Shown piece after piece: positions 11,795-64,000 of a stretch of 64,000 nt of DNA. Source of the stretch: Vibrio sp. JPW-9-11-11 (GTDB lineage: Bacteria; Pseudomonadota; Gammaproteobacteria; Enterobacterales; Vibrionaceae); contig NZ_SZQJ01000004.1 of NCBI RefSeq assembly GCF_013369335.1, positions 372,001 to 436,000 on the forward strand. Direction: 5' to 3'. The notes below the pieces were generated by a model, which saw nothing but the letters and a program-made list of their open reading frames with translations, was not told the origin of the DNA and did no database searches. Each line of letters opens with the position of its first letter. Position 1 is the stretch's first letter. The position numbers and the translations under genes are program-made.

Positions 11795-12844
11795 GTGACT
11801 GATCTACTAAGCCAAGACGAGATCGATGCGCTCCTCCATGGCGTCGACGACGTCGATGAGGTAGAAGAGGAAGATGTTGCCACGGACACGAGTGCCGTCG
11901 AGTTTGACTTTTCCTCGCAAGACCGGATTGTACGTGGTCGTATGCCCACGCTCGAACTTATCAACGAGCGTTTTGCACGTCATATGCGAATCAGCCTATT
12001 TAACATGCTGCGTAAAACGGCCGAAGTGTCGATTAACGGCGTGCAAATGATGAAGTTTGGTGAATACCAAAATACCTTGTACGTTCCCACCAGTTTAAAC
12101 ATGGTGCGCTTTAGACCATTAAAAGGCACGGCGCTTATTACGATGGAAGCGCGGCTGGTGTTTATTTTGGTAGAAAACTTCTTTGGCGGTGATGGTCGTT
12201 TTCACGCACGTATCGAGGGGCGTGAGTTTACGCCGACTGAACGACGTATCGTGCAGCTGCTGCTAAAAATTGTTTTTGAAGATTACAAAGAAGCTTGGTC
12301 CCCAGTAATGGGGGTTGAGTTTGAATACTTGGATTCAGAGGTGAACCCAAGTATGGCAAATATTGTCAGCCCAACCGAGGTGATTGTCGTCAGTTCTTTC
12401 CATATCGAAGTGGATGGCGGTGGTGGCGATTTCCATGTGGTCATGCCGTACTCTATGGTAGAACCCATCCGTGAACTGCTTGATGCGGGTGTTCAATCAG
12501 ACAAAATGGAAACGGACGTGCGCTGGAGTACAGCGTTACGCGAAGAGATCATGGATGTCCCGGTTAACTTTCGGGTTGATTTGCTCGAACAAGATATTTC
12601 CTTACGTGATCTGATGGAACTGCGCCCTGGCGATATTATTCCTATCGACATGCCCGAGCATGCGGTAATGTTTGTTGAAGAGCTGCCGACATTCCGTGTG
12701 AAAATGGGGCGTTCGGGGGAGAAGCTCGCTGTGCAAGTATCTGAGAAGATCAAACGTCCAGATGTAGTCAAAACCGATATTGCTTTCCTTGGTAAAGATG
12801 TGATTTCTGAGCTAGAAGATGATGAAGGTGATATGGATGAATAA
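11795..12844 (+). CDS. fliM: FliM, flagellar motor switch protein
   Basis: FliM forms the wall of the C ring and binds phosphorylated CheY. The N-terminal CheY-binding peptide is clear: LLSQDEIDALLHG at residues 4-16. A CheC-like middle domain with the GGDGR region follows, then a C-terminal SpoA-type domain that pairs with FliN. It has 349 residues with a GTG start at 11795, preceded by AGGTGACC. The same short peptide type recurs at the CheZ C-terminus, in CheA and in HubP of this window (see findings). Confidence 0.97.
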   Translation: MTDLLSQDEIDALLHGVDDVDEVEEEDVATDTSAVEFDFSSQDRIVRGRMPTLELINERFARHMRISLFNMLRKTAEVSINGVQMMKFGEYQNTLYVPTSLNMVRFRPLKGTALITMEARLVFILVENFFGGDGRFHARIEGREFTPTERRIVQLLLKIVFEDYKEAWSPVMGVEFEYLDSEVNPSMANIVSPTEVIVVSSFHIEVDGGGGDFHVVMPYSMVEPIRELLDAGVQSDKMETDVRWSTALREEIMDVPVNFRVDLLEQDISLRDLMELRPGDIIPIDMPEHAVMFVEELPTFRVKMGRSGEKLAVQVSEKIKRPDVVKTDIAFLGKDVISELEDDEGDMDE

Positions 12845-30102: not shown

Positions 30103-34176
<4,074 letters not shown>

Positions 34177-61725: not shown

Positions 61726-62106
61726 TTGAATAAAAACATGAAGATCCTTATTGTTGATGACTTCTCAACAATGCGCCGTATCGTTAAGAACCTACTTCGT
61801 GATTTGGGCTTTAATAATACCCAAGAAGCGGATGATGGCTTAACGGCGTTACCTATGCTTAAGAAAGGTGAGTTCGACTTTGTCGTGACAGACTGGAATA
61901 TGCCAGGTATGCAAGGTATTGACCTACTCAAGCATATTCGTGCCGACGATGAGTTGAAGCACTTGCCAGTGCTAATGATCACTGCAGAAGCGAAGCGCGA
62001 GCAGATCATCGAAGCCGCTCAGGCGGGTGTAAACGGCTATATTGTGAAGCCATTCACTGCGGCAACGCTAAAAGAAAAATTAGATAAAATTTTTGAGCGC
62101 TTATAG
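61726..62106 (+). CDS. cheY: CheY, chemotaxis response regulator
   Basis: CheY carries the signal from CheA to FliM. The receiver fold is complete: acidic pair in ILIVDDFS, phosphorylated Asp in [10 protein letters not shown], Thr/Ser switch in [10 protein letters not shown] and Lys in YIVKPF. I take the TTG at 61726 as start, because GGAGG (61716-61720) lies five bases before it; this gives 126 residues. The homologous Vibrio CheY3 is often listed with four more residues (from GTG 61714), but here that codon lies at the left edge of the ribosome site. It is 40 bases after fliA. Confidence 0.93.
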
Positions 62107-62145: not shown

Positions 62146-62865
62146 ATGATTTCATTAGAACAGGCAAAGCAACTCGTAGATTTGTTGGAAAGCGGCCAGC
62201 AACAAGAAGCGGATTCTCTTGTTAAGGGCATCTACGAGAATCAAAAAAATCCAATGCTACAAGAGATTGGTGAGTTGACTCGTGATTTACACGAGTCAAT
62301 CAAGCACTTTAGCGTGGATGAGCGCATGAGTGAGATCGCCAATGACGAAATCCCAGATGCAAGGGATCGCCTCCAATACGTCATTGACAAGACTGAAGTC
62401 GCTGCCAACAAAACTATGGATGCCGTCGATCGTTGTATGCCTATTGCAGACAACCTTCACGAAGGACTACTCAAGGTTCGCCCACAGTGGAATGAACTGA
62501 TGCATGGTCGTATTGAACTCGCAGAGTTCAAAGCCTTATGCCACCACATTGATGATCTTCTCGGCGAAGTGGAAGGCGACAGTTCTGAGCTAAGAGGGCA
62601 GCTAACTGAAATACTCATGGCTCAAGATTTCCAAGACTTAACTGGCCAAATCATTCGCAGAGTGATTACTTTGGTTAGCGAAGTCGAGGGTCGGCTAGTC
62701 GAAATTCTGACAGCGTTTGGCTCTAGCCAGTTGGAAGAAAGCACTGATAAAAAGAACAAAGCAGCAACGGATCCAGAAGGTCCTATTCTTAACCCTCAAG
62801 AAAGGGAAGATGCCGTTTCATCACAAGACGAAGTTGACGACTTACTCTCGAGTCTTGGGTTTTAG
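62146..62865 (+). CDS. cheZ: CheZ, CheY phosphatase
   Basis: CheZ removes the phosphate from CheY. The 239-residue, mostly helical protein has the catalytic segment AQDFQDLTGQIIRRVI and ends with the CheY-binding peptide SQDEVDDLLSSLGF (residues 226-239), joined by a flexible linker. It lies between cheY and cheA. Confidence 0.95.
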   Translation: MISLEQAKQLVDLLESGQQQEADSLVKGIYENQKNPMLQEIGELTRDLHESIKHFSVDERMSEIANDEIPDARDRLQYVIDKTEVAANKTMDAVDRCMPIADNLHEGLLKVRPQWNELMHGRIELAEFKALCHHIDDLLGEVEGDSSELRGQLTEILMAQDFQDLTGQIIRRVITLVSEVEGRLVEILTAFGSSQLEESTDKKNKAATDPEGPILNPQEREDAVSSQDEVDDLLSSLGF

Positions 62866-62874
62866 AGGTAATAT

Positions 62875-64000
62875 ATGAGCTACGATTTAGACGAAGATAT
62901 TCTTCAGGACTTTTTAGTTGAAGCAGGAGAGATTTTGGAACTTCTCTCTGAGCAGTTGGTAGAGCTAGAAAACAACCCTGACGATAAAGATCTATTAAAT
63001 GCTATTTTCCGTGGTTTCCACACCGTCAAAGGTGGCGCGGGCTTCCTAGCGTTGAGTGAACTGGTTGATACCTGTCACGGTGCCGAGAACGTTTTCGACA
63101 TTTTGCGTAATGGCCAGCGCCAAGTTAACGCCGGTTTGATGGATACGATGCTTAAAGCGTTGGATACCGTTAACGAGCAGTTCCAGGCGGTGCAAGACCG
63201 AGAGCCTTTACCTAAAGCCGAACAAGACCTGCTTGATGAACTGCATCGATTAAGTAACCCGGAGTCAGCAGACGAGGCGGTCGTAGCTGAAGAGCAACCT
63301 TCTGTTGCCGAAGAGGCACCAGTCGAACCACCACAGGTTGAAGAAGCTGCAGAGGAGTCTTCTCAGATCTCTGCTGGTTCGATTGATGAAATAACCCAAG
63401 ACGAATTCGAAAAATTGTTGGATGAGTTGCATGGCTCTGGAGCTGCACCAGGAGCGTCGAGTTCCGCCTCTGACGCACCAGCATCTCCACCTCCTGCTGC
63501 GTCAAGTAACCAAGACAGTGGCGATATTACCGACGATGAGTTTGAAAAGTTGCTTGATGAGCTTCATGGTTCAGGTAAAGCGCCCGGAAAAAGTGAACAA
63601 GCCACACCTGCGGAATCAAAACCAGCCGCTCCTTCTGCTCCATCTGAAGCGGCTGGTGATAGCGATTTGATGACCGACGAAGAGTTTGAAAAGCTCCTGG
63701 ATGAGCTGCACGGCTCTGGTAAAGGGCCATCACCGGAAGAGCTTGAAGCTGCGACTAAGCCTGCAAGTACACCGCCGCCAGCGGCTAAGCCTGCAGAACC
63801 CGCTAAGCCGGCAGCTGCGCCTGCACCTTCCGCTCAGGCTGCACCTCAACCACCTGCTAAAAAAGAGGCTGTACCACCTGCGACACAAGCGAAGAAGCCA
63901 CAAGCTGAAGCCACTGTTCGTGTTGATACCTCAACCCTAGACACCATCATGAATATGGTTGGTGAGCTGGTATTGGTGCGTAACCGTTTGTTAAGTCTTG
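62875..64000 (+). CDS. cheA: CheA, chemotaxis histidine kinase (3' end outside the window)
   Basis: The frame stays open from the ATG at 62875 (after AGAGGTAA) to the window end, giving 375 residues. An N-terminal Hpt (P1) domain carries the phosphorylated His49 in FRGFHTVKGGAGF. A long Pro/Ala/Glu-rich linker replaces a recognisable globular P2 and holds three copies of a motif, DEFEKLLDELHGSG (from residues 176, 221 and 269). The dimerisation domain P3 begins at the end (TLDTIMNMVGELVLVRNRL). The kinase core and CheW-like domain lie beyond the window. The repeats resemble the CheY-binding tails of FliM and CheZ. Confidence 0.95.
   Translation, partial: MSYDLDEDILQDFLVEAGEILELLSEQLVELENNPDDKDLLNAIFRGFHTVKGGAGFLALSELVDTCHGAENVFDILRNGQRQVNAGLMDTMLKALDTVNEQFQAVQDREPLPKAEQDLLDELHRLSNPESADEAVVAEEQPSVAEEAPVEPPQVEEAAEESSQISAGSIDEITQDEFEKLLDELHGSGAAPGASSSASDAPASPPPAASSNQDSGDITDDEFEKLLDELHGSGKAPGKSEQATPAESKPAAPSAPSEAAGDSDLMTDEEFEKLLDELHGSGKGPSPEELEAATKPASTPPPAAKPAEPAKPAAAPAPSAQAAPQPPAKKEAVPPATQAKKPQAEATVRVDTSTLDTIMNMVGELVLVRNRLLSL

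Follow-up and report, generated by a model that had tools for sequence, protein, structure and literature searches.

The stretch analysed here (the window) is 64,000 nucleotides of Vibrio sp. JPW-9-11-11 (contig NZ_SZQJ01000004.1, positions 372,001 to 436,000). It carries fliM, hubP, cheY, cheZ and the first part of cheA. A short acidic peptide pattern recurs in FliM, CheZ, CheA and HubP, and an earlier sequence-only reading of the window proposed that it is a common docking code for CheY. The features concerned are the following.

11795..12844, + strand: fliM, with a GTG start (Pfam FliM, E 8.4e-83).
11804..11842, + strand: FliM N-terminal peptide LLSQDEIDALLHG, residues 4-16, with the EIDAL motif; read from the sequence and found in 20/20 related genomes.
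30103..34176, + strand: hubP, a FimV-type polar landmark of 1357 aa with a long acidic cytosolic part (TIGR03505 FimV_core match).
31474..31506, + strand: HubP peptide SQDDFDALLAG, from residue 458, FliM-like; found by motif scan, at a similar position in Vibrio HubPs.
31654..31689, + strand: second HubP peptide SDSEIDDIFAQM, a relative of the conserved SDDDIDDLFAQ; found by motif scan and among conserved windows.
61738..62106, + strand: cheY, the proposed shared partner (Pfam Response_reg; closest solved chain 3to5, a CheY homolog).
62146..62865, + strand: cheZ (Pfam CheZ, E 7.1e-78).
62821..62862, + strand: CheZ C-terminal peptide SQDEVDDLLSSLGF, aligned to the E. coli CheZ of 1KMI, which ends in SQDQVDDLLDSLGF.
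62875..64000, + strand: cheA, running past the window end; the whole gene, in L002, encodes 735 aa, with Hpt at 8-100 and the dimerisation domain at 346-405.
63394..63435, + strand: CheA linker copy 1, TQDEFEKLLDELHG; motif scan, an isolated helix in models.
63529..63570, + strand: CheA linker copy 2, TDDEFEKLLDELHG; motif scan, an isolated helix in models.
63673..63714, + strand: CheA linker copy 3, TDEEFEKLLDELHG; motif scan, an isolated helix in models.

CheY ligands follow a known consensus, S-Q-D/A-E/Q-h-D-x-L-L (h, hydrophobic), and in E. coli the P2 domain of CheA binds the same CheY face as the FliM and CheZ peptides. That this face is common to CheZ and FliM is established (PMC3774744), so the placing of FliM residues 4-16 and the CheZ tail on one CheY face agrees with existing knowledge. 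The two peptides of the window are the EIDAL and CheZ-tail motifs of E. coli, Salmonella and V. cholerae, each a helix in a disordered terminus, whereas in CheA and HubP the peptide lies inside the protein, in CheA it is repeated, and binding by either protein is putative. The EIDAL motif has also been described in FliY/FliN of Bacillus and other bacteria (PMC6946799, PMC12826062); the motif is the same, but its carriers there are C-ring proteins, not a kinase or a landmark.

We expressed the pattern as the regular expression [ST][QDE][DE][DE]h[DE]xLL. A scan of both strands of the genome (4.14 Mb) returned six matches, one each in FliM, HubP and CheZ and three in CheA, and a six-frame scan of the window returned the same six and no others, confirming the shared peptides that the sequence-only reading had described. 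The DNA form of the pattern gave 8 matches in this genome and 0 in the reversed control; the two extra ones, CHEELELLL and SDEDLEYFF, misfit the amino-acid motif. Across 20 related genomes a slightly wider pattern produced 141 DNA matches in total, versus 28 in the reversed control. With 13 misfits dropped, 128 of the 141 fitted at the first eight residues, and these fell in CheA (57), FliM (20), CheZ (20) and HubP (13), with 18 elsewhere; FliM and CheZ were each covered in 20/20 genomes and HubP in 12. DNA matches outside the four genes numbered 31, about the level of the reversed control. Because the motif was derived from FliM, CheZ and CheA, the counts for those three are partly circular. 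HubP offers a freer test: shuffles of its acidic-part composition matched in 32/5000 cases, and in 7/5000 with Q at position 2.

We examined the CheA copies in a survey of gammaproteobacterial genomes, 85/206 of which match PF04344. From these, sixty regions around cheZ were taken, and a CheA open reading frame (ORF) adjoins in 54. The resulting alignment, A1, holds 59 CheAs with a core identity of ~50% or more (lowest 49.6), 51 from survey regions and 8 further ones. We excluded L121 and L189 (from a single genome, with an ORF that starts in the linker), L184 (the same gene as L113) and the partial L124 and L130, both with copies. The regular expression matched 56/59 A1 CheAs, as one to four copies of T(D/E)(D/E)EFEALLDxLHG, with 0.06 expected from shuffled linkers. 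The other three members (L113, L191, L193) carry, by eye, variants such as ITDAEFEALLDQLHA. A stricter core, D/E-h-D/E-x-LLD-x-L, was present in 55/59. Invariance of E and F among the copies follows from the regular expression by construction, and we relied on the A1 columns instead. Among the 191 linker columns, conservation of at least 80% was reached only by two motif blocks, one Pro and the four columns that adjoin Hpt; the two blocks conserve F at 0.97 and 1.0, and the second Leu likewise at 0.97 and 1.0. Positions outside the regular expression were kept as well, D10 in 106, L12 in 97 and G14 in 95 of 113 copies. Two to three copies occur in 30/30 Vibrionaceae CheAs read, the present one included, and by eye there are four in P. 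aeruginosa CheA and three in A. caviae CheA. Other-type CheAs (core identity 44% or less) gave 0/20 matches, whether to the regular expression or to a broad form of it. On a Photobacterium toruni plasmid (L367) that carries cheY-cheZ-cheA-cheW-cheV with no cheB, parC or parP adjoining, CheA keeps one perfect copy. The copies also continue into LLDxL, as the CheZ tail of E. coli does. As a separate observation, Pfam placed GemA weakly on 8/59 A1 CheAs, and in the window CheA its SHOCT and GemA matches lie at linker motif copies.

In the CheA of the window Pfam found the Hpt, dimerisation, ATPase and CheW domains, and no match to a P2 or CheY-binding domain. The P2/CheY-binding models matched 0/59 A1 CheAs, at low sensitivity: as they find P2 in only 1/16 other-type CheAs, this silence is weak evidence alone. 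With hhalign, the A1 linker gave no match to a P2 (E 0.46), and the other-type linker profile (sixteen aligned CheAs, one set aside as P2 reference) matched P2 weakly (E 0.0014, probability 17%). The array resembles the P2/CheY-binding domain (PF09078, PF07194) in its place, between P1 and P3, and in its proposed job. It differs in that P2 is a folded domain, whereas here short helices lie in a Pro/Ala-rich linker that neither Pfam nor hhalign matches to P2. AlphaFold models, run from a shallow alignment of 20 and with output that gives no interface, show each copy as an isolated helix flanked by linker segments with a predicted local distance difference test (pLDDT) score below 50.

CheY itself was compared between CheA types. 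The F7 class is the E. coli class of CheA. CheYs that work with F7-class CheAs are reported to be distinct from F6-class ones at P2-facing residues 92, 94 and 103, and five more differences face P1 (PMC7184735). We found CheY residue 103 (E. coli numbering) to be V in 53/53 loci where cheA adjoins cheZ; in G287, G328 and G231, all of which have an other-type CheA, it is A. This tracking of P2-facing residues with CheA type indicates that the CheY face follows the CheA type in part.

Together the results suggest that the CheA copies form a tandem set of CheY-docking peptides that stands in for P2, a reading to which we give a probability of roughly 60%; both CheY binding and P2 replacement are parts that we infer. 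The array is the strongest new point; the FliM and CheZ peptides are textbook CheY ligands. The shared element would be a short acidic amphipathic helix, N-capped by S/T-x-x-E/D and built around a Leu-Leu core, that serves for docking. Its FliM and CheZ versions sit, as established in other species, on the alpha4-beta5-alpha5 face of CheY. In CheA, three copies in the flexible linker that leads from the phosphotransfer domain P1 to the dimerisation domain would catch CheY, perhaps CheB too, by that same face and keep it close to phospho-P1; a tandem peptide array would in this way take over the P2 job. After phosphotransfer, CheY-P would go to FliM and be reset by CheZ, both meeting the same face with sibling peptides. 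More than half of surveyed CheAs lack P2 (PMC10782961), which raises the question of how such CheAs engage CheY efficiently. With a defined, repeated peptide, that engagement can be tested directly using synthetic peptides. We found no prior description of the CheA motif or of a FliM-like HubP peptide in the literature searched, which included few subscription papers.

Several observations weigh against CheY docking by the CheA copies. Two loci with an other-type CheA, G344 and G159, have V at CheY 103, and CheY residue 92 is mixed, with K in 12/53. AlphaFold confidence of the CheA helices was no higher with CheY in the chain and gave no sign of docking: the pLDDT of the motif blocks was 69, 73 and 62-65 in a CheY-CheZ-CheA chain versus 74, 80 and 62-77 in CheA alone. 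The joint chain brought no gain over the CheA-only control and was dropped as a docking test. At the hydrophobic position the copies carry F in place of the I or V of FliM and CheZ, and Pfam SHOCT matches weakly on 28/59 A1 CheAs. An N-cap followed by an acidic amphipathic helix is moreover a generic pattern. Five of the 18 off-target matches in the related genomes, from three genomes, were read and named by eye (a receiver-HDOD protein, a GlpD-like dehydrogenase, a transpeptidase-like protein, a phage-terminase-like protein and a 75-aa ORF); they are unrelated, mostly folded proteins.

The main competitor for the CheA copies is a role in polar tethering. Downstream of cheA in this genome, ParA-like and CheW-like genes follow cheB, and by their position we take them to be parC and parP. 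A ParP-binding region of CheA, the LID, has been reported between P2 and P3 in CheAs accompanied by ParC/ParP (PMC7534058, PMC5706961). The copies could be this LID. They would then tether CheA to the pole through the CheW-like domain of ParP and would be unrelated to CheY. The LID of Vibrio CheA is, by its description, in the same linker and in the same kind of species; its partner is ParP, where we propose CheY. The LID is described as a region before P3 found only with ParC/ParP, a conserved linker region before P3 is present here in the A1 columns, and the motifs are nearly the sole conserved elements of the linker. As little else there is conserved, the LID may be one of the copies, which also counts against CheY docking. 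ParC was matched in 8/70 loci, most survey regions ending before parC. On the other side, the copies resemble CheY ligands (CheZ tail and FliM), up to four near-identical ones occur per CheA, and the P2-facing residues of CheY partly track CheA type. The plasmid cheY/cheZ operon keeps a copy with no parC or parP adjoining, which mildly favours CheY, although the host chromosome may supply ParP. We consider the LID a serious but unlikely account of the copies. CheY and ParP functions may also coexist.

HubP shows the features of a HubP/FimV landmark, namely the LysM region of FimV_core, a membrane segment (by eye) and an acidic part with 36% D/E. We compared it with 80 named Vibrio HubPs (the best of 161, 78 of them long enough), which are related, not independent, and some of which end at contig ends. 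The strict form of the peptide was present in 59/80, with 1.2 expected from composition shuffles, 2/80 in reversed sequences and 0 in residues 1-300. The relaxed form was present in 68/80, with 12.7 expected from shuffles. The peptide lies mostly at residues 437-475 or 523-536 of the matched ORF, and takes forms such as SQDDFDALLAG, SADDIEALLSQ, SEDDIEALLAG (V. mimicus) and TDDDIDKLLAQ (V. harveyi). It is usually single in Vibrio HubPs and tandem in some relatives: seven copies at 25-residue spacing in G147 (L054), five GQDDIDDI(F/L) copies at spacing 15 in G075, and nine in G258 (L232, another family), of which six read DPDDIDALL and recur at intervals of exactly 30 residues. The acidic repeats of HubP that bind ParA1 (PMC7226244) are likewise repeated acidic stretches, but the FliM-like peptide is tandem in some relatives only. 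FimVs of other gammaproteobacterial families matched in 2/20 genomes with CheZ (G258 being one) and in 0/20 without CheZ, and we rejected the peptide as a general FimV feature. Acidic proteins of similar composition thus do not match as often, a concern that the sequence-only reading had raised and that shuffles, reversed sequences and other FimVs all speak against.

Judged by its sequence, the HubP peptide belongs to the same class and is conserved. Its fit to the CheY code is suggestive only, and docking of a receiver (CheY or CheV) or of FlhG at the pole is a weaker proposal than the one made for CheA. The proposal of a common CheY code held to different degrees. It is established for FliM and CheZ. 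For CheA it is supported indirectly, through linker motif conservation, the lack of a detected P2, the LLDxL extension and the tracking of CheY residues. For HubP it is undecided: the peptide is conserved and sometimes tandem, and its partner may be CheY, a CheV receiver, FlhG or another protein.

Direct docking of a receiver domain, CheY or a CheV, which would concentrate the receiver at the flagellated pole, is a tentative but possible explanation of the HubP peptide. The peptide consensus is that of CheY ligands. CheV4 is reported to be enriched in HubP-plus minicells, polar without ParC, and to form extra foci without HubP, but CheV4 minus its receiver domain is still polar (PMC8789113). 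The placement of chemotaxis proteins by HubP has been ascribed to its periplasmic or acidic part, with no mechanism given in the available text (PMC12918733). If HubP shares the code, the acidic domain would gain one concrete function.

Convergence without common function appears rather unlikely to us. A capping box on an acidic amphipathic helix is nothing unusual, and HubP abounds in such helices. Vibrio HubP has about ten conserved short acidic-hydrophobic stretches, of which the FliM-like peptide is not the best conserved: the SQDDIDALL window ranks 14th of the 15 best listed, at 0.67 versus a median column of 0.5. Furthermore, relatives without FliM lack the stretches together. FliM is absent in 8/150 family genomes, mostly of one genus, and seven of these (L055-L058, L081-L083) have HubP-like ORFs of 297-668 aa (one at a contig end) without the long acidic middle. 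The FliM-like peptide was absent from all seven, the 297-aa ORF of G011 included, and the other conserved stretches were likewise absent in the six read in the right frame. FliM-plus HubPs had at least one relaxed match in 32/37, with 4.2 expected. Because all stretches go together, it is the acidic domain as a whole that is linked to the flagellum, and peptide loss was rejected as specific evidence. Convergence is nonetheless opposed by the excess of the strict and relaxed forms over shuffled and reversed sequences, by the similar position of the peptide across Vibrio HubPs and by the scarcity of matches in other acidic FimVs.

That the peptide mimics the FliM N-terminus and docks the MinD-like ATPase FlhG, keeping it at the pole, is improbable: FlhG does bind FliM through that N-terminus in monotrichous species (PMC12826062), its polar localisation depends on HubP (PMC8009987) and the HubP copies are FliM-like (I-D/E-A-L-L), but a review places FlhG binding at the extreme HubP C-terminus (PMC7226244), which weakens FlhG as the sole explanation.

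A wider reading would join the CheA and HubP results, and we regard it as doubtful. CheA beside cheZ in most sampled gammaproteobacteria would have swapped a folded P2 for tandem CheZ-tail-like peptides, and HubP would carry FliM mimics (seven or more in some relatives), so that kinase, motor, phosphatase and landmark would compete for CheY-type receivers through one code.

The other conserved stretches of HubP include LLLDDDLFG, DLDFNLEGE, PFAGIGDDG, EKALGLEEMERALD, LDQSLLDDL, DDIDDLFAQ and a repeated STDLLDELL; LEEMERALD is the most conserved of the acidic stretches in Vibrio HubPs (L259-L338). One small genome, G002 (L214, 2.1 Mb), has stops in cheZ and parP, with cheY, cheA, cheB, parC, fliM and flhG free of stops. 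It was rejected as a CheY-less test case, as cheY and cheA are kept and only cheZ and parP are stopped among the genes searched. The hubP gene of the window also contains DNA repeats, a 9-base unit in 12 copies that reads Pro-Glu-Thr and a 108-base unit in 3.8 copies (32681-32790 and 32981-33387).
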